A DNA stretch of 32,167 bases from Gluconacetobacter tumulicola (GTDB taxonomy: Bacteria > Pseudomonadota > Alphaproteobacteria > Acetobacterales > Acetobacteraceae): contig NZ_JABEQL010000037.1 in the NCBI RefSeq assembly GCF_014174215.1, positions 1-32,167 on the forward strand, given 5' to 3'. Positions 12,364 through 27,603 of the stretch are shown piece by piece (position 1 is the stretch's first letter; each line of letters begins with the position of its first letter). The notes beneath the pieces were generated by a model that made no database searches, had not been told where the DNA came from, and saw nothing but the letters and a program-made list of their open reading frames with translations. A program made the position numbers and the translations under genes.

Positions 12364-13692
12364 TCACCCCTCCCGCACAGTATCGGAACACGCCCACGGA
12401 GCCCCGACACGCCGACGCTGATCGACATTGCGCCAGTATTCCTGCCACGCCCTGGTTGGACCGACACCGTCCATCGTGGCGGGCCCCCGCATCGACATCG
12501 CCTGCTCGCCATCAAGAACCATGATCGGTTTCTCCCCTTCCTCGACCTGACGGATCGCTGTCATCAGAAGGCGGCGGAACGCGATGATGGCCTTGTCGGT
12601 CTGCCCCAGATGTTCGCGCGTGCGATCCTGAATGCGTCCCTGCGACTCAATGGCCCATTGGTCATGGACGTTGATGTCTTCTCCCATGCCGGTATAGGTC
12701 TGGTGCGCCTGCTCATACGGATCGAATCCGTAATCATTGAAGCGCCCGATCCGCGGTCGATAATCGGGAAGCGTATAGAGTTTAAGGCGCTGGTCGCGCA
12801 TCGTCTCCTTGTCGACAGGCTGGTCGAAACTTGTAAAAATCGCGTACCAGTAACAACTCGTGTCATCGATCGGCACATGCCATTGCGTTATGGTCATCGT
12901 GCCCGACAGCGGAATGACGAATGCTTGGGGGAACAGCACATTCGTTACCCGAACATGCGTCTTCTGTTCGTTGATTTCCCGCAGGGCGATAATACGAAGA
13001 CCATAATCCATTGATTCGACAGAAATGTCCGGACACGGGAATTCACGTAATACCTGCGTCATCGGAATTTCACTGTCAGCCGACGTGGCCCGGAACTGGC
13101 GTCCATAAGCCGCGTCCTGCTTCTCGTCCTCGAAGAATCTGTGAAGAAAGCTGGCGTGCGCCGGATCCATGCCGACTTCCAGAGCTTGCAGCCAATTGCA
13201 TTCTATCAACCCTTTGAATGCAAAAACATAAGGTTCCGGAGCAAGAAAACAGTCCAACGCGGGAAATTCGGGCGGCTCTCCCTCACCCAGATAGGCGAAG
13301 ATGATGCCGCTCCTCTCAACGACCGGATAGGATTTCTGTCTGATATTCTTGCAAAGCCGGCTCCCCTTCGGCTCCGCCGGCGTCTGCAGGCAGTGCCCGT
13401 TCCGATCGAACAGCCATCCATGGAACGGACAGCGCAGACCACCATCCTCAAGCCGCCCGAATGCAAGATCGGCGTTGCGATGCGGACAGTCACGATCAAG
13501 CAGTCCAAGCTGCCCAGCCTCGTCGCGGAAAAGTACCAGATCCTGCCCCAGTAGACGGACAGGCCGGATCGGCCTGGCGCCCTCCAGTTCCACGGCCAGC
13601 GCGGCTGGCTGCCAATAACGGCGCAACAGGTTTCCTGCCGGCTTGCCGGGCGTGATGCGGGTAATCAAATCGTTTTGCGCTGCGCTCAGCAT
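12364..13692 (-). CDS. Rieske oxygenase alpha subunit, phthalate/LigXa/dicamba-demethylase type
   Basis: The 442-residue protein is a terminal Rieske oxygenase. The [2Fe-2S] ligands are Cys69, His71, Cys88 and His91 (CPHRN ... CPFHGW). The mononuclear iron site is in CNWLQALE ... GMDPAHASFLH, with Asp176, His179 and His184. The later segment ESQGRIQDRTREHLG is characteristic of this subfamily, which includes phthalate dioxygenase and aryl O-demethylases such as LigXa and DdmC. Both of those demethylases use a separate adrenodoxin-type ferredoxin and an FAD reductase, as encoded divergently here at 13847-15423. It is followed at four bases by the glutamine-synthetase-like gene. The ribosome-binding site is weak. 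Whether it demethylates or hydroxylates cannot be told from sequence. Confidence 0.93.
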   Translation of the reverse strand: MLSAAQNDLITRITPGKPAGNLLRRYWQPAALAVELEGARPIRPVRLLGQDLVLFRDEAGQLGLLDRDCPHRNADLAFGRLEDGGLRCPFHGWLFDRNGHCLQTPAEPKGSRLCKNIRQKSYPVVERSGIIFAYLGEGEPPEFPALDCFLAPEPYVFAFKGLIECNWLQALEVGMDPAHASFLHRFFEDEKQDAAYGRQFRATSADSEIPMTQVLREFPCPDISVESMDYGLRIIALREINEQKTHVRVTNVLFPQAFVIPLSGTMTITQWHVPIDDTSCYWYAIFTSFDQPVDKETMRDQRLKLYTLPDYRPRIGRFNDYGFDPYEQAHQTYTGMGEDINVHDQWAIESQGRIQDRTREHLGQTDKAIIAFRRLLMTAIRQVEEGEKPIMVLDGEQAMSMRGPATMDGVGPTRAWQEYWRNVDQRRRVGAPWACSDTVREG

Positions 13693-13732
13693 CGGACAGA
13701 TTTGCCTTTCAGAACGAAAAATGACACGGAAC

Positions 13733-13767
13733 TGTTCGATTAACGAACTATATGTTATCAGTCGAAC
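13733..13767. promoter_or_regulatory. Operator-like palindrome between the oxygenase and ferredoxin genes
   Basis: TGTTCGATTAACGAACT (13733-13749) contains the perfect inverted repeat GTTCG-ATTAA-CGAAC. A further CGAAC half-site is at 13763-13767. Reading leftward, TATAGT (complement of 13747-13752) is a possible -10 box for the oxygenase gene and overlaps the palindrome, though no good -35 is present. The site is 41 bases upstream of the oxygenase start and about 98 upstream of the ferredoxin start. It matches 16 of 17 bases of the site upstream of the TonB receptor. Confidence 0.6.
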
Positions 13768-13846
13768 AATGGTTGCAGGAAATCCGATGCCGATGCAATA
13801 TGTCTACGTTGTCTGATCGTAACTTTTTTACGTCCGGAGCCTGCCT

Positions 13847-14170
13847 ATGCCGAAAATAATCTTTCATCTCTCCGACACATCCGTCAGGGAGGTGGAGGTC
13901 AGCATTCCCACGACGGTCATGCAGGCGGCCATCTACGGCGATGTACGGGGGATCGAGGCAGAATGCGGGGGGGCCTGCGCGTGCGCCACCTGCCACGTCT
14001 ATGTCGATCCGGCATTTGTCACCCGCATCCCGCCGGCACAGCAGGACGAACTGGAAATGCTCGAGGGCGTTGCCGCGGACCGTCTACCCAACAGCCGCCT
14101 TGCCTGCCAGATCCATGTCACCGAGGCGCTCGACGGTTTGACCGTAAGCATTCCGGACCGTCAGTTCTGA
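13847..14170 (+). CDS. [2Fe-2S] ferredoxin, adrenodoxin/putidaredoxin type
   Basis: The 107-residue protein has the vertebrate-type ferredoxin cluster pattern C-x5-C-x2-C with a distant fourth ligand: Cys40, Cys46, Cys49 and Cys87. The surrounding residues (ECGGACACATCHVYVD and RLACQI) are typical of ferredoxins serving P450s and three-component Rieske oxygenases. GGAG lies seven bases before the ATG. The stop overlaps the start of the reductase gene (TGATG), so the two are translationally coupled. I infer that it carries electrons from that reductase to the oxygenase encoded at 12364-13692, as DdmB and LigXc do in their systems. Confidence 0.95.
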   Translation: MPKIIFHLSDTSVREVEVSIPTTVMQAAIYGDVRGIEAECGGACACATCHVYVDPAFVTRIPPAQQDELEMLEGVAADRLPNSRLACQIHVTEALDGLTVSIPDRQF

Positions 14171-15423
14171 TGGCGCCGGCGGTTCTGATCATCGGCGCGT
14201 CGCACGCAGGCGTTCAGTTCGCGGCGGCATTGCGCGAACTCGGCCACACCGGCCGGATCACTCTTGTCGACGCACAATCCGGGCCTCCGTGCCAGAGGCC
14301 CCCGTTATCGAAAGCGTTCATGCGGGACGCCGTGCCGGAAGACGCTCTGCATCTCCGCGGCCCCCATTTTTTCACGTCGGCAGAGATCGATTTTCGATCA
14401 GCGATGCCGGCAGCAGCCCTGGACCGCCAGGCACGACATGTTCAGCTCGGCAACGGCGAAAGGATTCCGTACGATGTCCTGATGCTCGCGACAGGCGCGC
14501 GTCCCCGCCCCTGGCCGCAGGGCACCGTTCCGAAGGGCGTTTTTGTCCTCCGCACGCTGGCCGACGCTCGGCTGCTGCGGAACGCAGCCGACCATACGGC
14601 CGGGCCGATCGTCGTCGTCGGCGGCGGATATATCAGCCTGGAACTGGCAGCGACCTGGCGGCGGTACGCACAGCGGGATGTCACGGTCATCAACAGCGGT
14701 CCGCGCCTGCTCTTCCGCTCCGCCTCGCCGGACCTTTCGGCCTTCGTGATGGCACGTCATCACGAGCACGGTGTCCGCGTTTTGAGCGAGCAGCCTGCGA
14801 CCGGATTAGTGGCCAACGACGATGGAGCCGTTCAGGGTGTCGCCCTTGCCGACGGCCGGATTGTTCCAGCAGCACTGGTCGTGCTCGGAACCGGAGCCAT
14901 TCCCGAACAGGACCTGGCGGAGGCCGCCGGGCTGGCATGTGACGATGGCATTCTGGTCGACGATCAATGCCGGACATCCGACCCGGCGATCTTTGCGGCG
15001 GGGGACTGCACCCGGCACATGACCGGCTTTGCCGGACACCGGATACGGCTCGAATGCGTACAGAATGCCCACGACCAGGCGCGCGTCGCCGCCGCCGTCA
15101 TCATGGGCCGCGACGCGCGTTACACGCAGGTACCCTGGTTCTGGTCCGATCAGTTCGACATGAAGATCCAGACGGTAGGCATATTCGACCCGTCATCCAC
15201 CTGCGTGGTACGAGGCAACCCAGCGGCAGGCACGTGCGCCTTCTATCATTTCGGCAAGGCGGAAATCCTGCAGTGCATCGAAACAGTCAATATGCCGGCA
15301 GAACACATGCAGGCCCGCCAGGCACTGACATCGGGCATTCTACCCATCCGCGATCAGGTGGCCTCACCGTCCTTCAGCCTCAAGGCCTTTCTGGCAGAAC
15401 AGCGGGCTGGCCTGATGCGCTGA
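14170..15423 (+). CDS. FAD/NAD(P)H ferredoxin reductase (putidaredoxin reductase family)
   Basis: The 417-residue flavoprotein has two Rossmann motifs, one for FAD (IIGASHAG, 7-14) and one for NAD(P)H (VVVGGGYISLELA, 148-160). It also has LATGARPR near 106-113 and the second FAD-binding segment IFAAGDCT near 274-281. This is the glutathione-reductase-type ferredoxin reductase paired with adrenodoxin-type ferredoxins. The start overlaps the ferredoxin stop by one base; the open frame continues upstream only as a shadow. It completes the electron chain NAD(P)H to FAD to ferredoxin to Rieske oxygenase. It converges with the iclR gene 17 bases downstream. Confidence 0.95.
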   Translation: MAPAVLIIGASHAGVQFAAALRELGHTGRITLVDAQSGPPCQRPPLSKAFMRDAVPEDALHLRGPHFFTSAEIDFRSAMPAAALDRQARHVQLGNGERIPYDVLMLATGARPRPWPQGTVPKGVFVLRTLADARLLRNAADHTAGPIVVVGGGYISLELAATWRRYAQRDVTVINSGPRLLFRSASPDLSAFVMARHHEHGVRVLSEQPATGLVANDDGAVQGVALADGRIVPAALVVLGTGAIPEQDLAEAAGLACDDGILVDDQCRTSDPAIFAAGDCTRHMTGFAGHRIRLECVQNAHDQARVAAAVIMGRDARYTQVPWFWSDQFDMKIQTVGIFDPSSTCVVRGNPAAGTCAFYHFGKAEILQCIETVNMPAEHMQARQALTSGILPIRDQVASPSFSLKAFLAEQRAGLMR

Positions 15424-18268: not shown

Positions 18269-19615
18269 ATGATGCTGCTGGCCGGGCTGGTCGCGATCGT
18301 GGTCCTGATCGGCTTCAGCATCCTGATCGCCCTGTCCGAGATCTCGTTCGCGGCGGCGCGCGAGGTGCGGCTGCGCACCCGGGCCGAGGCCGGCGACAGC
18401 CGGGCCGTGAACTTCCTGCGCCTGCGCCGCAACAGCGGGCAGGTGGTGACGGTGCTGCAGATCTGCCTCAACGCCGTAGGCGTGCTGGGCGGCGTCATCA
18501 GCAGCGACATGGTCACCCCGCCGCTGGCCGACATCCTGCACCGCGCCGGGCTGGAAGAGGGTCTGGCCGGGCACGTCGCCTCCACCGCGTCCTTCGTGCT
18601 GATCACGGGCCTGTTCGTGCTGTTCGCCGACCTGCTGCCCAAGCGCATCGCCATGAACGCGCCCGACCGCGTGGCGCTGAGCATCGGCTGGTTCCCCGCC
18701 ATCGCGCTGAAGGTGCTGTACCCGTTCGTCTGGATCTTCTCCAAGATGTCGGACGTCATCCTGCGCGCGCTGAAAATCCCCGCCGCCTCGGCCGTCGAAC
18801 CGGTGACGCCGGAAGACCTCCGCGCCATCCTGGCCGCCGGCACCGCCTCGGGCGTCCTGCTGGAGCAGGAACACCAGATGATCCAGAACGTCCTGGGCCT
18901 CCAGGACCGTTCCGTGACCTCGGCCATGACCCCCCGCGACGAGATCGTGTTCCTCGACATGCAGGAAAGTGCCGAAAGCCAGCGCGACAAGGTGCGGGCC
19001 AAGCCCTATTCCCGCTACCCGCTCTGCAATGGCGGGCTGGACAATGTCATCGGCTCGATCCGCGCCGAAGACGTGCTGGCCGCCGTGGTGGAAAAGCCCG
19101 AGGATGTCGACCCGACCGCGACCATCCTGCCGGTGGCCAAGCAGATCTCCCGCATGCGGCGCGACGTGCTGTCCCTCCCCGACACGCTCAACCTGTGGGA
19201 CACGCTGGCCCAGTTCGACACGCATGGCGCGGGCTTCGCCCTGATCGTCAACGAATACGGTCTGGTGGTCGGCCTGATCACCTTCAAGGACATCATGGGC
19301 GCGCTGATGGACGGGCTCGCCAACCCGTTCGAGGAACAGGCCATCGTCCGCCGCGACGAGAATTCGTGGCTGATCGACGGCGCCGCCCCGATCGGCGACG
19401 TCATCCGCGAACTCGGCGTGCCGGACCTGCCCGACAGCCACAATTTCGATACGATCGGCGGCTTCGTCATGCACCGGCTGCGCCGCATGGCGCGCAAGGC
19501 CGACAAGGTCGAGGCCGCCAATTTCCTGTTCGAGGTCGTGGACGTCGAGGGCTTCCGCATCAACCAGCTCCTGGTCACGCGCCGCCCCCGCCGCCCGGAC
19601 GCCGATCAGCCGTAA
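18269..19615 (+). CDS. CNNM/CorC-family membrane protein with CBS domains
   Basis: The 448-residue protein has an N-terminal DUF21 (CNNM) transmembrane domain of several helices to about residue 170 (LSEISFAAAREVRLR, ICLNAVGVLGG, FADLLPKRIAMNAPDRVA). A pair of CBS domains follows (about 210-340; SAMTPRDEIVFLD, VNEYGLVVGLITFKDIMGAL), then a C-terminal CorC/HlyC transporter-associated domain (about 360-440; GFVMHRLRRM). Members are linked to Mg2+ or Co2+ transport and are often mislabelled hemolysins. GGAGG lies seven bases before the first of two ATGs. Its end overlaps by 10 bases the end of the convergent GST gene. Confidence 0.93.
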   Translation: MMLLAGLVAIVVLIGFSILIALSEISFAAAREVRLRTRAEAGDSRAVNFLRLRRNSGQVVTVLQICLNAVGVLGGVISSDMVTPPLADILHRAGLEEGLAGHVASTASFVLITGLFVLFADLLPKRIAMNAPDRVALSIGWFPAIALKVLYPFVWIFSKMSDVILRALKIPAASAVEPVTPEDLRAILAAGTASGVLLEQEHQMIQNVLGLQDRSVTSAMTPRDEIVFLDMQESAESQRDKVRAKPYSRYPLCNGGLDNVIGSIRAEDVLAAVVEKPEDVDPTATILPVAKQISRMRRDVLSLPDTLNLWDTLAQFDTHGAGFALIVNEYGLVVGLITFKDIMGALMDGLANPFEEQAIVRRDENSWLIDGAAPIGDVIRELGVPDLPDSHNFDTIGGFVMHRLRRMARKADKVEAANFLFEVVDVEGFRINQLLVTRRPRRPDADQP

Positions 19616-20232
19616 TCGGGAATGCCGGGCATGGTGACGAAGCCCGGCAGCCCCCGCACCGCCCGCACCCAGCGCCGCAGCGCGGGATAGGCGGAATATT
19701 CCTCCCCCCAATCCCGACACAGCGCGGCGGCGGGAAACAGGGCGATATCCGCCACCGTCGGCCCATCGCCCACAAACCACGCACCGCCCTCCAGCCGCCG
19801 ATGGACCAGATGGTCCTCCATGATCCGCAGCGCCCCCACCGCCGCCCGCCGGCGGGCGGATTGCCCATCCCCCGCCCCACCGAACAGACAGGCCCGCCGC
19901 ATCAGCAGCGTCGCCCGCAACGGCCCAGCGGCAAACTGCAGCCAGTGCGCCACCCGCGCAAAATCCGCGCGCACCTCAGGCAGCCACGCCGGCCGCCCAT
20001 GCGCCAGCGCCAGCAGCGCGCCACCGGCCCCACAGACCATTTGCCCGTCGATCCGCAGCACCGGCAGCAACCCGGCCGGCGAAACAGCACGAAAACCCGG
20101 ACTGTCCTGCGCGCCACCAGGCACGACATCGACCGCGACCCGACGCGCCTCAAGCCCCAGCAGCGACAGGAACAGCCGCACCCGATAGCAATCCTCGTCC
20201 AGCTCGTCGTCGTGCAGCACCAGCTCACTCAT
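19606..20232 (-). CDS. Glutathione S-transferase-fold protein, possible NdmE-like scaffold
   Basis: The 208-residue protein has an N-terminal thioredoxin-like half (CYRVRLFLSLLGLE, then SPAGLLPVLRIDG in the place of the cis-Pro loop) and a helical C-terminal half with the N-capping box PTVADIALFP. Cys15 is at the usual Ser/Cys catalytic position. Its ATG overlaps the stop of the Rieske gene upstream (ATGA), so production is coupled to it. In caffeine degradation by Pseudomonas putida CBB5, the GST homologue NdmE is a structural partner of the N7-demethylase oxygenase NdmC and the Rieske-bearing reductase NdmD. By context I infer a similar scaffold role; plain glutathione chemistry remains possible. 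Confidence 0.85.
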   Translation of the reverse strand: MSELVLHDDELDEDCYRVRLFLSLLGLEARRVAVDVVPGGAQDSPGFRAVSPAGLLPVLRIDGQMVCGAGGALLALAHGRPAWLPEVRADFARVAHWLQFAAGPLRATLLMRRACLFGGAGDGQSARRRAAVGALRIMEDHLVHRRLEGGAWFVGDGPTVADIALFPAAALCRDWGEEYSAYPALRRWVRAVRGLPGFVTMPGIPDYG

Positions 20233-20909
20233 GCCACGACCCCCGCCAGAAAAACCTGCCCGGCCCGTTCCTCCGCCCGCGCCCGCACATCCTGCCCCCA
20301 ATCGGCCAGATCATGCAGCCGCTCCACCCCGGCAGACGCCGCCGCCAGCAGATGCAGCATGCACGCCCCCTCACGCACCGGCAGCAGCGCCGCCAGCACC
20401 CGGCCCTCCACATCCCGGTCCAGCGCGGCGGCCCGATGCCCGTCCGGCATCCCGACCGCACGCGCCACATCCTGCCACGGGGCCTCGATCCGCAGCGAGC
20501 GCACCGGTACCCACGCCGCCGCATCCATCGCCGGATCGCCCTCCGGCAAGGACCCGTCCTCCTCGACCGAAGCCCAGACCAGCCCATGACATTCCGCAAC
20601 AGGCAAAGGCGCGGCCCGGATCGTCCCCGGCGGCGACAGGTCGGGATGCGCCGGAATATGCACGCACCGCCCATCCACCCCGAAGCGCCAGCCATGATAC
20701 AGGCAGGCCAGCGCCCCCTCCCGCACAAAGCCCAGGCTCAGCCGCATGCCGCGATGCGGGCACCGGTCGTCCCACACATGCGCCTGCCCCTCCCCGTCCC
20801 GCCAGACCGCAAGGTCCCGCCCCAGCACGGTACTGCCGGCCACCGTACCCAGCTCCAGATCCGCCGACAGCATCAGCGGATACCATCCGCCATCACATGT
20901 CCCGCTCAT
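20229..20909 (-). CDS. Rieske [2Fe-2S] protein with a shrunken, iron-less oxygenase domain
   Basis: The 226-residue protein keeps a complete Rieske site: Cys50, His52, Cys69 and His72 (CPHRG ... CLYHGW), with the usual ending HGLVWASVE near 109-117. What follows is much shorter than a Rieske oxygenase catalytic domain. The segment APWQDVARAVGMPDGHRAAA lines up with the iron-ligand segment of the family, but the three ligand positions are Gly, Asp and Ala instead of Asp, His and His. WGQDVRARAEE near the end still resembles the last ligand helix. It therefore can pass electrons but should not bind catalytic iron. It lies between the 91-aa gene and the GST gene with ATGA overlaps on both sides. 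I infer it is the electron-transfer half of the oxygenase whose iron half is encoded at 26731-27603. Confidence 0.88.
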   Translation of the reverse strand: MSGTCDGGWYPLMLSADLELGTVAGSTVLGRDLAVWRDGEGQAHVWDDRCPHRGMRLSLGFVREGALACLYHGWRFGVDGRCVHIPAHPDLSPPGTIRAAPLPVAECHGLVWASVEEDGSLPEGDPAMDAAAWVPVRSLRIEAPWQDVARAVGMPDGHRAAALDRDVEGRVLAALLPVREGACMLHLLAAASAGVERLHDLADWGQDVRARAEERAGQVFLAGVVA

Positions 20910-21181
20910 TCCCTCTCCCCCTGAACCCTGTCCTCACCGGGCACGGGCAGGCAGCGCACCACCGGCACCACACACCCCGCCGGCCCCAGACTGCACGCCA
21001 TCTCGAACGCGCCCACCAGCGGCTCCGGCCCCGCAACCTCGAACACCACCCGCACCGGCCCGGCCTCGACCAACACGCACTCCAGCGCCATCAGGGCGGC
21101 ACGCTCACGGGCGAGGCACAGAATGGCCTCCACCGCCGTGCATCCCTCCAGTTCCAGGCGCATCCGCTCCCACCGGCTCAT
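20906..21181 (-). CDS. Small alpha/beta protein of unknown function (ACT-like fold guess)
   Basis: The 91-residue product matches no family I can name with confidence. AGGAGG lies five bases before its ATG, and its stop overlaps the Rieske start, so it is a real first gene of the leftward unit. The predicted order is strand (MRLELEG), helix (AVEAILCLARERAA), strand (LECVLVEAG), strand (VRVVFEVAG), helix (LVGAFEMAC), strand (CVVPVVRCL). That fits a ferredoxin-like fold as in small ACT proteins such as IlvM. A bacterial microcompartment shell domain has a related order but is a poorer fit. Six cysteines (14, 22, 35, 63, 70, 77) in such a short protein are unusual and might bind metal. Confidence 0.75.
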   Translation of the reverse strand: MSRWERMRLELEGCTAVEAILCLARERAALMALECVLVEAGPVRVVFEVAGPEPLVGAFEMACSLGPAGCVVPVVRCLPVPGEDRVQGERE

Positions 21182-21216
21182 GCCCGCCTCCTGCCCCTTA
21201 ATCCCCGATAGCCCGC

Positions 21217-21260
21217 CCGTTCGAAACGTGCCATCCCTGTTCCGAAACCGTACCGAACGG
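21217..21260. promoter_or_regulatory. Inverted repeat in the divergent control region
   Basis: CCGTTCG (21217-21223) and CGAACGG (21254-21260) form a 7-bp inverted repeat with a 30-base spacer. Inside it GTTCGAAACGT (21219-21229) is echoed by GTTCCGAAACCGT (21239-21251). The 88-base gap lies between the two divergent units of the split-oxygenase system, so this is the expected operator position. The second arm sits just before the pncA ribosome-binding site. No regulator gene is adjacent. Confidence 0.4.
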
Positions 21261-21269
21261 AGAGAGGCC

Positions 21270-21872
21270 ATGATCCATGTCACATCCCACGATGCGCTGC
21301 TGGTCATCGATCTCCAGAACGATTTCCTGCCCGGCGGCGCCCTGGCCGTTCCGGACGGCGACGCGGTCATTCCGGTCATCAACCACCTGACCCTCCTGCC
21401 CTTCGGCCAGCAGGCGGCCAGCCAGGACTGGCATCCGCACTTCCATGTCTCCTTCGCCAGCACTCACGGGCGAAAAGCCACGCCCGATCACTGGCCCGAC
21501 CATTGCGTGGCGGGAACGCACGGCGCCGAACTGGCGGCCACGCTGCACCAGGCACGGATCGGCATGGTGATCCGCAAGGGCCGCGACCCGGATGTCGACA
21601 GCTATTCCGCCTTCATGGACAACGACCGCGCCACCCGGACGGGGCTGGATTCCTGCCTGAAGGGGCTGGGCATCAGCCGCGTCTTCATCACCGGGCTGGC
21701 GCTGGATTATTGCGTGCGCTTCACCGCCATCGACGCGAAGGCCCTTGGTTTCGAGACGATCGTGGTCGAAGATGCATGCCGCGCGGTCGGCTCCGACCCG
21801 CAGGCCACATGGCAGATCCTGGCACAGCACGGCATCGCACGTGCCCACGCCGCCGATCTGGCCGGCCTGTAG
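21270..21872 (+). CDS. pncA: Nicotinamidase (PncA-type isochorismatase-fold amidase)
   Basis: The 200-residue protein has the nicotinamidase triad: Asp14 in VIDLQNDF, Lys103 in IRKG and Cys148 in LDYCVRFTA. The metal-binding pattern is also visible (DWHP with Asp53 and His55, and WPDHCVAGTHG with His78). PncA converts nicotinamide to nicotinate and ammonia for NAD salvage. GGAGAGAGG precedes the ATG. It is the first gene of the rightward unit and is followed after 75 bases by the ABC importer. That placement suggests that it acts on a product of the imported compound, not only in general NAD salvage. Related ring amidases share the fold, so a different heterocyclic amide is possible. Confidence 0.88.
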   Translation: MIHVTSHDALLVIDLQNDFLPGGALAVPDGDAVIPVINHLTLLPFGQQAASQDWHPHFHVSFASTHGRKATPDHWPDHCVAGTHGAELAATLHQARIGMVIRKGRDPDVDSYSAFMDNDRATRTGLDSCLKGLGISRVFITGLALDYCVRFTAIDAKALGFETIVVEDACRAVGSDPQATWQILAQHGIARAHAADLAGL

Positions 21873-21947
21873 GACGGGGCACGGCCCGTTCCGGGGGGAA
21901 CAACCCGGCGCCGGGTGGGACCGGCCCGGGCGATCATCGAGGGGGGA

Positions 21948-23102
21948 ATGCGGAACCATGACCATTCCGGGTCAGGTATGACCACGCACGCGCCGATCAG
22001 GCGGCTGCTCACATCACGACGACACATGCTGGGACTGGCCGCCGGAGCAGCCGGCAGCGGACTGCTCCGACCACCCGCCCTGCGGGCACAGCCACGGACA
22101 TTGCTCCCGGTGGCGGAAGCCGACGCGCTGGTCGCCTTCGGCCATACCAGCCCGGTCACCGACGGCGGCTGGACGATGGCGCACGATCAGGGCGTGCAGG
22201 CGGTGCGGCGGGCCTTTCCACGCCTGCGCACGGTCTATGTCGAAAGCGTGCCCTACTCCGCCGACGCCACGCGCATCTTCCGCCAGTTCGTGGCCGAAGG
22301 CGCACAGATGGTCATCGCGACCTCCAACTATGGCGATTTCATCCGCGACGTCTCCGACCGCGCGCCCGATGTCGCCTTCATGGAATGCGACGGCCACGCC
22401 GTCAGCGGCAATCTGGGCTGGTATTACATCACCCACTGGTACGCCAGCTACGTCATCGGCATCGCCGCCGGGCTGATGACACGCACCAACAAGATCGGCT
22501 TCGTCGGCTCCTTTCCCATCCCGTCCGTCTATGCGGGCGCCAACGCCGTGCTGCTGGGCGCACGCTCGGTCAACCCGGCCGCCACCCTGCAGGCCATCTC
22601 GATCAATGCGTGGTTCGACCCGCAGGCCGCCACCCAGGCCGGCAGCGCGCTGGCCGACAATGGCTGCGATTTCCTGTGCGGCATCATGGACGAACCCGCC
22701 TATCTGCGCGTGGCCGAACAGCGCGGCATCAAGGCCGCGATGTGGAACACCGACATGCGCCAGTACGGGCCGGAAGCCTATGTCAGCTCCGTCACGCTGG
22801 ATTTCCGCGATTACTATGTCGAACAGGTCCGCGCCCGCCTGGCCGGCACCTGGCAGCCCCAGGGCCATTTCCTGACCCTCGGCCACGGCGTGGACCGCGA
22901 CCCGTGGGGCCGCACCGTCCCCCCCGAAGTCGCGGCCCAGGCCGACGCGATGCGCACGCGCATCATGCAAGGCTACAACCCGTTCCAGGGCCCGATCCAC
23001 GACGCCGCCGGCCGCCTCCGCGTACCCCAGGGCCAGGCGATGGACGACGCGCTAATCTATCAGTGGGACTGGGCTGTGGCGGGAGTGACCGGCCTTGACT
23101 GA
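21948..23102 (+). CDS. BMP-family periplasmic substrate-binding protein, Tat-exported
   Basis: The 384-residue protein is of the basic-membrane-protein (BMP/PnrA/NupN) family. These bind purine nucleosides and related compounds for ABC import. Typical segments are VTDGGWTMAHDQGVQAV near the mature start and YVIGIAAGLMTRTNKIGFVG followed by IPSVYAGANAVLLGARSVNP. The N-terminus has a twin-arginine signal (TSRRHMLGLAAGAAG) with cleavage near LRAQ, and no lipobox. Many family members are lipoproteins, so this is a soluble Tat-dependent version. I chose the ATG at 21948 because GAGGGGGGA precedes it; the in-frame ATG at 21978 is also possible and leaves the Tat signal intact. Confidence 0.9.
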   Translation: MRNHDHSGSGMTTHAPIRRLLTSRRHMLGLAAGAAGSGLLRPPALRAQPRTLLPVAEADALVAFGHTSPVTDGGWTMAHDQGVQAVRRAFPRLRTVYVESVPYSADATRIFRQFVAEGAQMVIATSNYGDFIRDVSDRAPDVAFMECDGHAVSGNLGWYYITHWYASYVIGIAAGLMTRTNKIGFVGSFPIPSVYAGANAVLLGARSVNPAATLQAISINAWFDPQAATQAGSALADNGCDFLCGIMDEPAYLRVAEQRGIKAAMWNTDMRQYGPEAYVSSVTLDFRDYYVEQVRARLAGTWQPQGHFLTLGHGVDRDPWGRTVPPEVAAQADAMRTRIMQGYNPFQGPIHDAAGRLRVPQGQAMDDALIYQWDWAVAGVTGLD

Positions 23103-24702
23103 CCCGCGCCACACCCAGCCCGACGCCCCGCCCCCGGTCGCGCCCGGCACGCCGCCGATCCTGCAATTGCAGGGAATCTGCAAATATTTCCCCGGCGTGA
23201 TCGCCAACCAGGATGTCAGCCTCGACATCGCACCGGGCGAGATCCACGCCCTGCTGGGCGAAAACGGCGCCGGCAAGTCCACGCTGATGAACGTCGTCAC
23301 CGGCATCTACCAGCCCGATGGCGGCGAGATCATCCTCGACGGCTACGGCCAGAGCTTCGCCGCCCCGCAGGATGCCATCCGCGCCGGCATCGGCATGGTC
23401 CACCAGCATTTCAAACTGGTCCCCGCCTTCACAGTGGCCGAAAACATCCATCTCGGCTGGCGCGAAACCCCGTTCCGGGCCTCGGCGAAAACACTGGAAG
23501 CCCGCACCCGCGCCCTGTCGGACCGGTTCGGCTTTTCCGTCCGCCCCGATGCCATCGTGGCCGACCTGTCGGCGGGCGAGCAGCAGCGGGTGGAAATCCT
23601 GCGCGTGCTGGGACGCCAGGCCCGCCTGCTGATCCTGGACGAACCCACGGCGGTGCTGACCCCGGCCGAAACGCGCGACCTGTTCCGCGCCCTGCGCGCC
23701 TTCCGTGCCCAGGGCAACGCCGTGATCCTGATCAGCCACAAGCTGGACGAGGTCATCGACATCTCAGACCGCATCAGCATCCTGCGCACCGGCCGCAATG
23801 TCGGCACCTACCGCACGGCCGACTGCACCGCCGCCGGCCTCGCCACCATCATGGTCGGTCGCGAGATCGTTCGCCGCGATCTGCGCGCCCGCGCCCCCGG
23901 CGCCGCCCCCATTGCCACCACCCCCGTCCTGAGCCTGCGCGGCGCCACCTGCCGCGATCCGCGCGGCGTGGAAACCCTGCGCGACGTCACCTTGGACCTG
24001 CATGGCGGCGAAATCCTCGGCATCGCCGGCGTCGCCGGCAACGGACAGCGCGAACTCACCCAGGTCCTCACCGGCATGATGCCCCTCTCGGCGGGCGAGA
24101 TCCTGCTCGACGGCACCCCAGCCCCGCTGGCCGATCCGGCCGCCTTCGCCCGCTCCGGCATCGGCCACATCCCCGAAGACAGGCTGCGCAGCGGCCTGGC
24201 CCCGTCGCTGGACATCACCGACAATATGGCCCTGCGCGAATATGACCGCCCGCCGATCGGCCGCCACGGCCTGTACGACCGCGCCGCCGCCGCCCGTCTG
24301 GCCAGCACGATCGTCGAGGCCGCCGAGGTCCGCGTGCCCGACCTCGCCACCCCCATCCGCAACCTGTCCGGCGGCAACCAGCAGCGGCTGGTGGCACGAC
24401 GCGAAATCCGCATCGCCAGCCGGGTGCTGGTCGCCGCCTATCCCAGCCGGGGCCTGGATATCGGCGCCATCGCCACCGTGCTCCGCTACCTGACCGAACT
24501 GCGCGACCAGGGCGTGGCGGTGGTCCTGGTGTCCGAGGATCTGGAGGAACTGCTGAACGTCGCCGACCGCATCGGCGTCCTGTTCCACGGCCGGCTGATG
24601 GCCACGATCGACGCCGCAACGGCCGATATGGAAACGATCGGCCTGCTGATGGGCGGCCGCCCGGCACCCAGCGGCTCGGCTCACAGCGGAGGACAAGCCT
24701 GA
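23095..24702 (+). CDS. ABC transporter ATPase with two nucleotide-binding domains (NupO type)
   Basis: The 535-residue protein has two ABC domains in tandem. The first is intact: Walker A GENGAGKST (55-63), signature LSAGEQQR (158-165) and Walker B LILDEPT (Asp182, Glu183). The second is degenerate, as is normal for this family: GVAGNGQRE in place of Walker A (about 312-320), signature LSGGNQQR (424-431) and VAAYPSRGLD in place of Walker B. It starts with TTG, eight bases inside the end of the preceding gene, with GGGAG nine bases upstream; no in-frame ATG lies before Walker A. It would power the two permeases encoded next. Confidence 0.94.
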   Translation: MTDPRHTQPDAPPPVAPGTPPILQLQGICKYFPGVIANQDVSLDIAPGEIHALLGENGAGKSTLMNVVTGIYQPDGGEIILDGYGQSFAAPQDAIRAGIGMVHQHFKLVPAFTVAENIHLGWRETPFRASAKTLEARTRALSDRFGFSVRPDAIVADLSAGEQQRVEILRVLGRQARLLILDEPTAVLTPAETRDLFRALRAFRAQGNAVILISHKLDEVIDISDRISILRTGRNVGTYRTADCTAAGLATIMVGREIVRRDLRARAPGAAPIATTPVLSLRGATCRDPRGVETLRDVTLDLHGGEILGIAGVAGNGQRELTQVLTGMMPLSAGEILLDGTPAPLADPAAFARSGIGHIPEDRLRSGLAPSLDITDNMALREYDRPPIGRHGLYDRAAAARLASTIVEAAEVRVPDLATPIRNLSGGNQQRLVARREIRIASRVLVAAYPSRGLDIGAIATVLRYLTELRDQGVAVVLVSEDLEELLNVADRIGVLFHGRLMATIDAATADMETIGLLMGGRPAPSGSAHSGGQA

Positions 24703-25784
24703 TGGCCGGCACGCTGCAACGCCAGCCCACCGTCACCCCGGCCCGCCGGCTGGCCTGGCGCGCGGGCGCCATCGTCACCGCCCTGGCGATCACCACCCTC
24801 TTCCTCGCCCTGTCGGGCCGCGACCCGCGCCTGCTGGCCGACCTGGTGGTGCGCTCCACCGTGGGTTCCCGCTTCGGGCTGGAAGACCTCGCCCTGTTCC
24901 TCACCCCCCTGCTGCTGACCGGCGCGGCCGTCACCGTGACCGGGCGGATCGGCGTATGGAATATCGGCGCCGAAGGCCAGTTCTATGCCGGCGCCATCGG
25001 CGCCACCGCCATCGGCCTGTTCCTGCCCGGCCCGTCCTGGCTGGTGCTGCCGCTGATGGCCGCCAGCGGCATCGCCTGCGGCATGGGCTGGATTCTGGTC
25101 CCCGCCCTGGCCCGCGCCTATGCCGGCGTGAACGAGATCATCACCACCCTGCTGCTCAATTTCGTCGCCGGTCTGCTGACCACCTATCTGGCAGTCGGCC
25201 CATGGCATGACCGCGTCACCGGCGCGCTGGCCTCGACCGGCCGCCTGCCGGTACGCATCCCCGAAATCTGGGGCGTGGTCCATTGGGGCTTCCCCATCGC
25301 CCTCGCCATCGTGCTGGGACTGGCATGGCTCACCACCCGCACAAGCTGGGGCTACCAGATCACCGTCGGCGGCGCGAATGAACAGGCCGCCCGCTACGCC
25401 GGCATCCCGGTCCGCGCCCGCATCCTGGGCGTGATGCTGCTCTCCGGCGGCCTGGCCGCCCTGGCGGGCATGTTCGAGGTCGCGGGCACGGTGCACCGGC
25501 TGCAAGGCGGTCTTGCCAATAATTTCGGCTATTTCGGCATCGTGGTCGCGGTGCTGGCGCGCGGATCGTGCCTCAACGTGCTGCCCGCCGCCCTGCTGAT
25601 GGCCTTCATCCTCAATGCCGGCATCGTGCTGCAAACCCAGCAACTGACAGGCTCCGCCGTGCTGGCCATCACCGGACTGGTCCTGTTCATGATCGCCATC
25701 GCCGACGAACTCGCCCATTACCGCCCGGTGACCGTCCGTCCCGTCACCCCCCGCCCTGCCACCCGCGCGGAGGTCCGGCCATGA
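24702..25784 (+). CDS. ABC transporter permease (NupP type)
   Basis: The 360-residue inner-membrane protein has about ten hydrophobic segments and the family signature WNIGAEGQFYAGAIGAT (about 86-102), followed by AGVNEIITTLLLNFVA. This is the first of the two permeases found in BMP-type nucleoside importers. Its ATG overlaps the ATPase stop by one base (TGATG) and GGAGG precedes it. With the next gene it forms the membrane channel of the importer. Confidence 0.93.
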   Translation: MAGTLQRQPTVTPARRLAWRAGAIVTALAITTLFLALSGRDPRLLADLVVRSTVGSRFGLEDLALFLTPLLLTGAAVTVTGRIGVWNIGAEGQFYAGAIGATAIGLFLPGPSWLVLPLMAASGIACGMGWILVPALARAYAGVNEIITTLLLNFVAGLLTTYLAVGPWHDRVTGALASTGRLPVRIPEIWGVVHWGFPIALAIVLGLAWLTTRTSWGYQITVGGANEQAARYAGIPVRARILGVMLLSGGLAALAGMFEVAGTVHRLQGGLANNFGYFGIVVAVLARGSCLNVLPAALLMAFILNAGIVLQTQQLTGSAVLAITGLVLFMIAIADELAHYRPVTVRPVTPRPATRAEVRP

Positions 25785-26719
25785 TCGACCTGCTGACCGG
25801 CATGCTCTCCACCGCAATCCTCGCCGGCGGCGTGCTCGCCCTGGCCGCGCTGGGCGAAGTCCTGGCCGAACGCGTGGGCGTCACCAATCTCGGCGTCGAG
25901 GGCCTGATGTCGATGGGCGCGGTGGTTGCCATCATCACCGTGGTCGCCACCCCCAACCCATGGCTGGGCCTGCTGGCGGCCACGCTTGCCGGCGCCGCGG
26001 GCGGCATGGTCTTCGCCTTCGCCACCGTCATCGTCCGCGCCAACCAGGTGCTGTGCGGGCTGGCCGTCACCTTCCTCGGCCTCGGCCTGTCGGCCAGTAT
26101 CGGCCATGATTACGCGGGCGTGCCCTCGCCCGCCACATTCGGCCGCGTGCCCGTCCCCGGCCTGTCGTCCCTGCCGGTCATCGGCCCCGCCTTCTTCGGC
26201 CAGAACCTGCCGGTCTATCTCATCTACCTGGTCCTGCCGGCGGTGGCCCACTGGGTGATGTTCCACACCCGCCACGGTCTGGCGATGCGCGCGGTGGGCG
26301 AAAACCCGGCAGCGGCCGACGCGGCGGGCCTGCCGGTCACCGCCTTGCGCTTCTGGTACGTCACGCTGGGCGCCGGCCTGGCCGGGGCCGCCGGCGGCTA
26401 CCTGACACTCACCTACGTGCCCGTCTGGTCCGAGGGGCTGGTGGCGGGAAGAGGCTGGATCGCCCTGGCCCTGGTCATCTTCGCCGGCTACCGGCCCTTC
26501 GGCGCCACCCTGTCGGGCCTGCTGTTCGGGCTGATCACCGCGCTCTCCTTCGTCGGCCAGGCCCGCAACTGGCCGATCGCGCCGGCCTTCCTGAACATGC
26601 TGCCCTATCTGGGCACGATCGCGTTCATCATCGTGCCGGTGGTCGTCTGGCACCGCATGCGCCGCATCATGGCCGCCCCGGCGGCGCTCGGCGTACCGTA
26701 TCATCGTGACGTGAGGTAA
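25781..26719 (+). CDS. ABC transporter permease (NupQ type)
   Basis: The 312-residue inner-membrane protein has the second-permease signature: GEVLAERVGVTNLGVEGLMSMGA (about 25-47), the cytoplasmic coupling segment GLAMRAVGENPAAADAAGLPV and the ending LNMLPYLGTIAFI. Its ATG overlaps the preceding stop (ATGA). The open frame extends upstream only as a shadow of the first permease. The importer is complete: binding protein, double ATPase and two permeases. Confidence 0.93.
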   Translation: MIDLLTGMLSTAILAGGVLALAALGEVLAERVGVTNLGVEGLMSMGAVVAIITVVATPNPWLGLLAATLAGAAGGMVFAFATVIVRANQVLCGLAVTFLGLGLSASIGHDYAGVPSPATFGRVPVPGLSSLPVIGPAFFGQNLPVYLIYLVLPAVAHWVMFHTRHGLAMRAVGENPAAADAAGLPVTALRFWYVTLGAGLAGAAGGYLTLTYVPVWSEGLVAGRGWIALALVIFAGYRPFGATLSGLLFGLITALSFVGQARNWPIAPAFLNMLPYLGTIAFIIVPVVVWHRMRRIMAAPAALGVPYHRDVR

Positions 26720-26730
26720 GGAGCCCCCCA

Positions 26731-27603
26731 ATGACCCATCGCGTGGACCCCACCGACCGCGCCGTTCTCGATGCCTGGCACGCGGTCGGCTTTCTCGAAA
26801 CACTGGGCGCGGGCCCCACCCATACGCGCCTGCTCGGCGTCGGCCTGACGATCCAGCGCACCGCCGACGGCACGGTACAGGTCCGGGCCGAGGGGCACGA
26901 CGCCCCCCTGCCGGTCGCCGAACGCCATGGCTGCCTGTGGACCAGCCTCGGCACGCCCCCCGCCACGCCCCTCGCCATCCCGGAAGCCGACGAGCCCGAT
27001 CGCCGCCTGGTCTGCTGCGGCTCGATCGACGTCCACGCCTCCGGCCTGCGCGTGGTCGAGAATTTCCTCGACATGGCGCATTTCCCGTTCGTCCACACCA
27101 ATATCCTGGGCGCCGAACCGCAGACCGAGGTCCTGCGCTACCACACCGAATGGCGGCGCGACGTCGACGAGATCTGGGCCACCGACTGCCGCTTCCACCA
27201 GCCGCAGGCCGCCCTGTCGGCCGAGGGCGGGCAGGACACGGGCTATATCTACCGCGTCGCCTCCCCTTTCGTGACCCTGCTCTACAAGACCTGCCCCAAC
27301 GACGCGCTGCGCCCCGACGTCATCGCCCTGTTCGTCCAGCCGACGGAACCCGAACGATGCCGCGCCCACCCCGTCATGTTCCTGATCGACGAACTCTCGG
27401 CCCAGGCGGACCTGATCCAGTTCCAGCAGAAGATCTTCCTGCAGGACCGCATCATTCTCGAAAACCAGCGCCCCCGCCTGCTACCATTGGATGCGCGCGC
27501 CGAAATCCCCACCCGCGCCGACTCCCTCTCGGTCACCTATCGCCGCTGGCTGAAGGAAAAACAGGTCCGATACGGCGCAACCGGCACCCTGCCTAGCTCC
27601 TGA
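26731..27603 (+). CDS. Rieske-less mononuclear-iron oxygenase, NdmC-like
   Basis: The 290-residue protein is the catalytic half of a Rieske oxygenase. The iron site is intact: VVENFLDMAHFPFVH with Asn111, Asp114, His117 and His122, and the last carboxylate Asp239 in LQDRIILENQRP. ADSLSVTYRRWL near the end is typical of aromatic and N-demethylating oxygenases. The N-terminal 75 residues keep the edges of a Rieske domain (DAWHAVGFLE and AERHGCLWTSLG), but the cluster-binding segment with its two Cys and two His is missing. NdmC, the caffeine N7-demethylase of Pseudomonas putida CBB5, is also Rieske-less and borrows the cluster of a partner. Here the partner is probably the protein encoded at 20229-20909. 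GGAG precedes the ATG, 11 bases after the permease stop. Confidence 0.88.
   Translation: MTHRVDPTDRAVLDAWHAVGFLETLGAGPTHTRLLGVGLTIQRTADGTVQVRAEGHDAPLPVAERHGCLWTSLGTPPATPLAIPEADEPDRRLVCCGSIDVHASGLRVVENFLDMAHFPFVHTNILGAEPQTEVLRYHTEWRRDVDEIWATDCRFHQPQAALSAEGGQDTGYIYRVASPFVTLLYKTCPNDALRPDVIALFVQPTEPERCRAHPVMFLIDELSAQADLIQFQQKIFLQDRIILENQRPRLLPLDARAEIPTRADSLSVTYRRWLKEKQVRYGATGTLPSS

Follow-up and report, generated by a model that had tools for sequence, protein, structure and literature searches.

The window analyzed here, 32,167 nucleotides of Gluconacetobacter tumulicola DNA that make up an entire contig (NZ_JABEQL010000037.1; G000:C37), encodes two proteins resembling the two parts of a Rieske non-heme iron oxygenase. 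The first, a free-standing Rieske protein of 226 amino acids (aa; 20229–20909, minus strand), is composed of a Rieske [2Fe-2S] domain and a shrunken catalytic-type domain devoid of iron ligands; the second, a catalytic half of 290 aa (26731–27603, plus strand), contains a mononuclear iron domain and is the counterpart of NdmC, a subunit of the caffeine N7-demethylase NdmCDE. Both open reading frames start with an ATG and lie where they had been placed when the pair was first proposed from the sequence (hereafter the original prediction). The glutathione S-transferase (GST) gene noticed in their neighborhood could be positioned more precisely: it is found directly downstream of the Rieske gene (19606–20232, minus strand), with a start that shares 4 bases with the Rieske stop, and specifies a GST-like protein of 208 aa, the counterpart of NdmE and a presumed scaffold, which matches the Pfam models GST_N and GST_C (run on 19606–20244). 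The organization of this single neighborhood into divergent units was likewise confirmed, the interval between the two halves being occupied by a nicotinamidase-type gene and a BMP-type ABC transporter, all on the plus strand. The former (21270–21872) scores 193.4 bits against NCBIfam NF008623, for a cut-off of 174, and its membership in the module is uncertain. The importer comprises a BMP/PnrA-type substrate-binding protein (21948–23102; Pfam Bmp, 1.3e-30), a double-cassette ATPase (23095–24702; ABC_tran, 3.9e-46, in two stretches), permease A (24702–25784; BPD_transp_2, 1.5e-25) and, directly upstream of the catalytic half, permease B (25781–26719; BPD_transp_2, 2.3e-36).

Metal sites and folds of the two halves

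Ordinary Rieske oxygenases carry both metal sites in each catalytic chain. Neither protein of the window does so, the Rieske and mononuclear iron sites being found only in the pair taken jointly. At E ≤ 0.1, Pfam recognized nothing but Rieske (2e-23) in the 226-aa protein, in which the four cluster ligands announced by the original prediction are indeed present (C50, H52, C69, and H72) and invariant across 70 aligned Rieske halves. The 290-aa protein matches VanA_C (3.6e-20) and, marginally, just above the cut-off, KshA_C, and the same Pfam search returned no Rieske model. Its iron-site region retains E110, N111, D114, H117, H122, and D239, the last four of which, correctly identified as a full iron site, are invariant across 52 aligned catalytic halves.

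We compared the two families by profile–profile alignment. The catalytic family displays a gap of about 50 residues which spans the segment of the Cys and His ligands, while the scaffold strands match on both sides, as expected if the cluster-binding segment was missing and the domain edges were kept. Reciprocally, the iron motif of the catalytic family faces Gly153 and Asp156 of the Rieske family. The iron site of the 226-aa protein had been described as replaced by Gly, Asp, and Ala; the first two assignments stand, G153 and D156 being aligned with D114 and H117, whereas the alignment stops in this region and A161 faces H122 only by ungapped extension beyond its end. The view that each protein has lost what the other keeps is thus borne out by complementary deletions as well as by complementary motifs: of 129 distinct catalytic halves, 128 showed the iron motif and none the cluster motif, whereas all 110 distinct free Rieske halves contained the cluster motif and none the iron motif. 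The sole catalytic half without an iron motif is part of a frame-broken gene. These counts refer to distinct sequences, since some genomes occur twice (as a genome and as a named contig), and leave out three short catalytic fragments (L055, the first piece of L261, and L263) and the Rieske fragment of L263; 29 frames matching both profiles had been set aside beforehand as full-length oxygenases. They include one truncated row (L284) omitted from the catalytic row set A4 and five short rows (L108, L262, L265, L271, and L272) omitted, along with the fused ones, from the Rieske row set A5. Because sequences were first sorted by profile matches, the zeros are partly obtained by construction, and the independent support for the split therefore comes from the phylogenetic trees described below, in which no full-length oxygenase falls among the split halves.

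Structural models agree with this picture. The AlphaFold2 model of the Rieske half (predicted local distance difference test [pLDDT] 93.3, predicted template-modeling score [pTM] 0.89) comprises a complete Rieske domain, then a small sheet, and then a long C-terminal helix (residues 195–225). That of the catalytic half (pLDDT 91.5, pTM 0.91) starts with six short strands, which we read as a putative Rieske scaffold, followed by the full iron domain. In Foldseek searches, both models matched Rieske oxygenases, with GxtA/SxtT ranked on top and TM-scores by query length, among the GxtA/SxtT chains listed, of 0.64–0.72 for the Rieske half and 0.79–0.84 for the catalytic half. The same proteins, SxtT and GxtA (deposited as SxtDIOX), gave the best sequence matches in the PDB, the Rieske half matching their residues 11–121 and the catalytic half their residues 109–333, plus a weak piece at 5–44. 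Unlike the pair studied here, SxtT and GxtA hold both metal sites in one chain, and we know of no GST partner for them. Further PDB matches of both halves were the single-chain N-demethylases NdmA and NdmB, again with both sites in one chain; they are described as an alpha3-alpha'3 heterohexamer in which the cluster lies 12.1 angstroms from the iron of the neighboring subunit (PMC10380055). Each half keeps the scaffold of both domains with one metal site only, and from the models we read each protein as a probable whole-oxygenase fold minus one metal site.

Relationship to NdmCDE and inheritance of the module

The nearest known case remains the one put forward in the original prediction, namely the 7-methylxanthine N7-demethylase NdmCDE of Pseudomonas putida CBB5. 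NdmC is devoid of a Rieske cluster, relies on the Rieske domain of NdmD and requires the GST-like NdmE, the three forming a 360-kDa complex with three copies of each subunit (3:3:3; PMC10380055), the structure of which is given as unsolved in a 2026 note (PMC13237722). The word NdmC does not occur in a 2025 review of Rieske oxygenases (PMC12445004). A catalytic subunit without cluster, a Rieske domain on another polypeptide and a GST-like third protein are common to both systems. They differ by their transporters and neighboring genes, and by the Rieske domain itself, which is fused to a reductase in NdmD and free in the 226-aa protein, which matches Pfam Rieske only; the different architecture anticipated for a free-standing Rieske half is therefore real. 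An ndmCDE-like cluster on a Klebsiella plasmid (L176) illustrates this relationship, with a catalytic subunit 50% identical to that of the window, then a 585-aa Rieske-reductase and then a GST, the halves belonging to the same clades as those of the window. We did not find the free-standing Rieske form described in the titles and abstract beginnings listed by searches of the open-access literature, in which we also found nothing linking a Rieske oxygenase with 8-oxoguanine deaminase, or a 7-methylguanine demethylase with a Rieske protein; PMC6421345, a lead on rhizobial expression, contained nothing on these genes.

Phylogenetic analyses supported the common descent of these proteins with NdmC/NdmD-type halves. 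In the catalytic-domain tree (68 rows), all split halves, whether their Rieske partner is free or fused, lie on one side of a branch separating them from full-length oxygenases (support 92/90), and the Rieske-domain tree (90 rows, few columns) gave the same partition (99/97). The NdmCDE type is represented there by ndmCDE-like clusters from Klebsiella, P. fulva and Sinorhizobium plasmids and from other genomes, rather than by NdmC and NdmD of CBB5. Both trees were rebuilt without the long-branch rows of first quick trees, and the Rieske tree was also thinned of near-copies; long-branch warnings persist for the catalytic-domain tree. Free forms are intermingled with fused ones, and the well-supported branches cannot be reconciled with fewer than two or three changes, indicating either repeated fusion with a reductase or a fusion that was subsequently lost. 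In the simplest reading of these trees, a single-chain oxygenase would have been divided once, in ancient times, and the Rieske half would then have been joined to a reductase in some lines. The system is thus a sister form of NdmCDE with a free Rieske subunit.

The distribution of the two halves is strikingly parallel. Among 397 genomes of the host's family, 39 had a catalytic-half match at E ≤ 1e-30; two of these matches correspond to full-length oxygenases (open frames of 377 in G092 and 355 in G312) and a third, in G403, to a fragment. The other 36 genomes are, in our own reading of the two match tables, exactly the 36 with a Rieske-half match extending past the Rieske domain, and no genome had one half only. 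In G403 (L263), fragments of both halves lie side by side, and the two seem to decay together. Within the genus, 12 of 14 genomes have both halves and two have neither, one of the latter being G013, whose assembly is 87% complete and spread over 1310 contigs. Sampling of the class (385 genomes) and of the phylum (398 genomes) yielded 21 further genomes with a catalytic half at E ≤ 1e-45, after exclusion of seven other phylum matches which were full-length oxygenases, and in all 21 a Rieske partner was encoded on the same contig, free-standing in 14 and fused in seven. Six of the fusions are of the NdmD type (five by Pfam, and the sixth, in G840, by size and Rieske position only). The seventh, in G1072 (L287, 7104–8417), is a 437-aa protein with a Rieske and a plant-type ferredoxin domain and no recognized NAD-binding domain; it is perhaps an intermediate between the free Rieske half and NdmD. 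In the reverse search, a Rieske-half match at E ≤ 1e-38 was found in nine of 239 phylum genomes, seven of which also have the catalytic half, while the two others correspond to full-length oxygenases. Finally, three Acetobacter loci (Acetobacter sacchari, A. nitrogenifigens, and Acetobacter sp. DsW_063) lack a nearby Rieske half, and all three genomes carry the Rieske and GST genes together on another contig, so that linkage is lost or long-range while co-retention is kept. The co-occurrence expected from the original prediction is therefore observed even for halves that are not neighbors, and in the genome sets searched we never saw one half accompanied by a full Rieske oxygenase in place of the other.

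Gene order was examined in the 80 best loci among 537 relatives (the named loci), with flanks of up to 10 kb on each side. Both the Rieske half and the GST were present in the flanks of 77 of them, the other three carrying both elsewhere in the genome, and in 77 of 77 the Rieske gene is on the strand opposite the catalytic gene. Rieske and GST genes overlap in 99 of 114 neighbor pairs (all loci, some genomes counted twice), typically by 1 or 4 bases, which supports the view that the GST belongs with the pair. Three plasmids, Rhizobium johnstonii pRL10, a Shinella plasmid, and an Agrobacterium plasmid, display a one-strand order: Rieske, catalytic half, GST, amidohydrolase, BMP binding protein, ABC ATPase, and two permeases. 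Two halves and GST are inherited together, and the two-protein Rieske oxygenase with a GST-like partner is real and widely conserved. The GST itself varies, with a motif LDEDCYRVRL in the window's clade versus LSGNCYK in several members of the fused clade, and is shortened in its N-terminal domain in L052, L053, and L136 (Gluconobacter morbifer and two other family genomes); this variation would fit a structural role.

The importer is a frequent companion, the BMP gene, permease A, and permease B each being found in 66 of the 80 named loci and an ABC ATPase match, which may include an unrelated ATPase, in 67. Guanine deaminase is linked in 40 loci, 8-oxoguanine deaminase in 24, and either of them in 48. 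One representative of each deaminase scored above its NCBIfam cut-off; the guanine deaminase of L136 and the pRL10 amidohydrolase scored below theirs. Adenine-deaminase-like neighbors (40/80) were not relied on, the single one tested being below its NCBIfam cut-off. The nicotinamidase-type gene is linked in 14 named loci, exclusively of Gluconacetobacter (9) and Acetobacter (5) (L080 gave a weak match of 47 residues), and this linkage hints at a pyridine rather than a purine substrate in that clade.

Proposed enzyme and alternative explanations

Taken together, these data make it very probable that a single Rieske non-heme iron oxygenase is assembled from the 226-aa and 290-aa subunits, each polypeptide contributing one of its two metal sites. 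An electron would enter the [2Fe-2S] cluster of the 226-aa protein from a donor and would then cross the subunit interface, from a cluster histidine to Asp114 and the iron site of the 290-aa protein, as between neighbors in ordinary oxygenase trimers; we presume that Asp114 bridges to the Rieske histidine of the partner as in other Rieske oxygenases. The iron site would activate O2 on a substrate imported by the BMP-type transporter, and the GST-like protein may act as a non-catalytic clamp, as proposed for NdmE, in an assembly that, by analogy with NdmCDE, is probably oxygenase3-Rieske3-GST3. A purine-type base is the likely substrate, given that NdmC and HpxD both act on purines and that guanine and 8-oxoguanine deaminases are encoded beside the enzyme in many relatives. 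It would be either N-demethylated, as by NdmCDE, or hydroxylated, feeding these deaminases.

Several points weigh against this proposal. The co-occurrence counts come from related genomes, not from independent events, in family, class, and phylum searches that scored only the best 6–12 candidates per genome. A Roseicitreum plasmid (L172) carries a catalytic half and no Rieske half, the chromosome not having been searched. NdmD-type reductases were found in the flanks of none of the 80 named loci, and none was detected at E ≤ 1e-15 in the window's own genome. With regard to the substrate, neither guanine deaminase nor 8-oxoguanine deaminase occurs in the flanks of 32 of the 80 loci, including the nine of Gluconacetobacter, so that the purine link is not uniform; as a nicotinamidase-type gene replaces the deaminases in Gluconacetobacter and Acetobacter, the substrate may differ by clade.

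The 226-aa protein could be a Rieske ferredoxin devoted to another oxygenase, for example the full Rieske oxygenase of 442 aa (12364–13692), which has a ferredoxin and a reductase of its own in this window, while the 290-aa protein would take its electrons elsewhere; a 33%-identical oxygenase is also found about 5.5 kb from the pair in G032 (L054). We consider this very improbable, because the 226-aa protein, unlike a ferredoxin, keeps a shrunken catalytic-type domain and because the Rieske half was not seen where the catalytic half is absent in the genome sets searched. In addition, throughout the 80 named and 15 module loci (L041–L055), with the exception of L054, the best match of the 442-aa oxygenase was the Rieske half itself. 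Its ferredoxin was found in none of L041–L060 and L061–L140 and its reductase only weakly in three of the 80 loci, so the position of these genes (13847–15423) beside the module is not a shared feature. The idea that an oxygenase was duplicated and that either half, or both, is a remnant without function, as the degenerate second domain of each half and the broken copies in two genomes (G403 and G356) might suggest, deserves even less credence in view of the near-universal metal motifs, the invariant iron-site residues and cluster ligands, the operon structure, and the co-retention reported above.

Two other alternatives concern the function of the split enzyme rather than its existence. The same two proteins might hydroxylate a purine ring carbon instead of N-demethylating, for example converting guanine into 8-oxoguanine, which 8-oxoguanine deaminase would turn into urate. 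This deaminase gene immediately precedes the catalytic half in 22 of the 23 loci in which the open reading frame map placed it. HpxD, which shares 28.8% identity with the catalytic half, bears the annotation of a molybdenum-independent xanthine hydroxylase, and hpxDE is described as oxidizing hypoxanthine and xanthine (PMC7373994). HpxD (L180) is a full-length protein with both domains, unlike the window's pair, and groups with full-length oxygenases. Moreover, NdmC, the nearer characterized relative, is an N7-demethylase, and guanine deaminase is commoner than 8-oxoguanine deaminase near the module. Ring hydroxylation is a rather unlikely alternative, and N-demethylation is tentatively favored. 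A second possibility, compatible with the two-subunit oxygenase, is that the Rieske half is an electron-delivery subunit shared by more than one catalytic half. In seven loci (L285 [G1128], L274 [G724], L275, L276, L277, L177, and L178), a single Rieske half, free or fused, accompanies two catalytic halves. An eighth case is provided by a Rhizobium tumorigenes plasmid (L295): beyond its only Rieske-GST pair, some 6 kb away from the Rieske gene, lies a second catalytic half of 289 aa, with an iron motif but no cluster motif (profile E 2.4e-125). This idea remains tentative, as most loci have one half of each kind, the second catalytic half could be inactive, and two of the seven loci are strains of one species. 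With the same reserve, since these loci suggest that one Rieske platform may serve several catalytic halves, we can imagine a modular two-protein class in which the Rieske subunit and the GST scaffold would form a common electron-delivery platform, fed by general ferredoxins instead of a dedicated reductase, for interchangeable catalytic halves acting on different purine-type substrates. If so, alphaproteobacteria including rhizobia would possess an oxygenase route into purine catabolism beside the molybdenum enzymes.

As for the donor, an NdmD-type reductase was rejected as a universal candidate: at E ≤ 1e-15, it was found in eight of 13 genomes, including two without the module (G002 and G013), and was absent from five module genomes. 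The free-standing form brings NdmCDE, the unusual enzyme of caffeine degradation, into a larger class, and it suggests that a split enzyme can do without the fused reductase. Because each ordinary catalytic chain holds both metal sites, the electron step between neighbors is hard to study apart; a natural separation, conserved in many genera, makes it possible to produce and mutate donor and acceptor separately and to combine them at will. The split oxygenase seems to occur in many plant- and soil-associated bacteria, where it is kept with a scaffold-like protein and often with transport and purine-breakdown genes, and it points to a probably purine-linked pathway in rhizobia and acetic acid bacteria, the proteins of which carry generic database names.

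Other features of the window and its relatives

On the R. tumorigenes plasmid, the stretch 51–5975 of L295 combines the second catalytic half with genes for an amidohydrolase, a molybdopterin-type oxidoreductase, a (2Fe-2S) protein, and an aldehyde dehydrogenase. An Rfam scan for a riboswitch upstream of the importer gave no match in the window, and tRNA alone in six relatives. The window also encodes, at 12364–15423, a complete ordinary Rieske oxygenase system, in which possible electron donors for the split pair may be found. It consists of the 442-aa oxygenase (minus strand), of the LigXa type, a 2Fe-2S ferredoxin (13847–14170, plus strand) and an FAD-type ferredoxin reductase (14170–15423, plus strand), and is followed by an IclR-type gene, the last three being named from the sequence by eye. 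Between 8000 and 14000, the G+C content falls to 0.55–0.57, versus approximately 0.63–0.73 elsewhere. This stretch, which spans a TonB-receptor-like gene, a glutamine-synthetase-like gene, and the 442-aa oxygenase, is possibly an acquired island.

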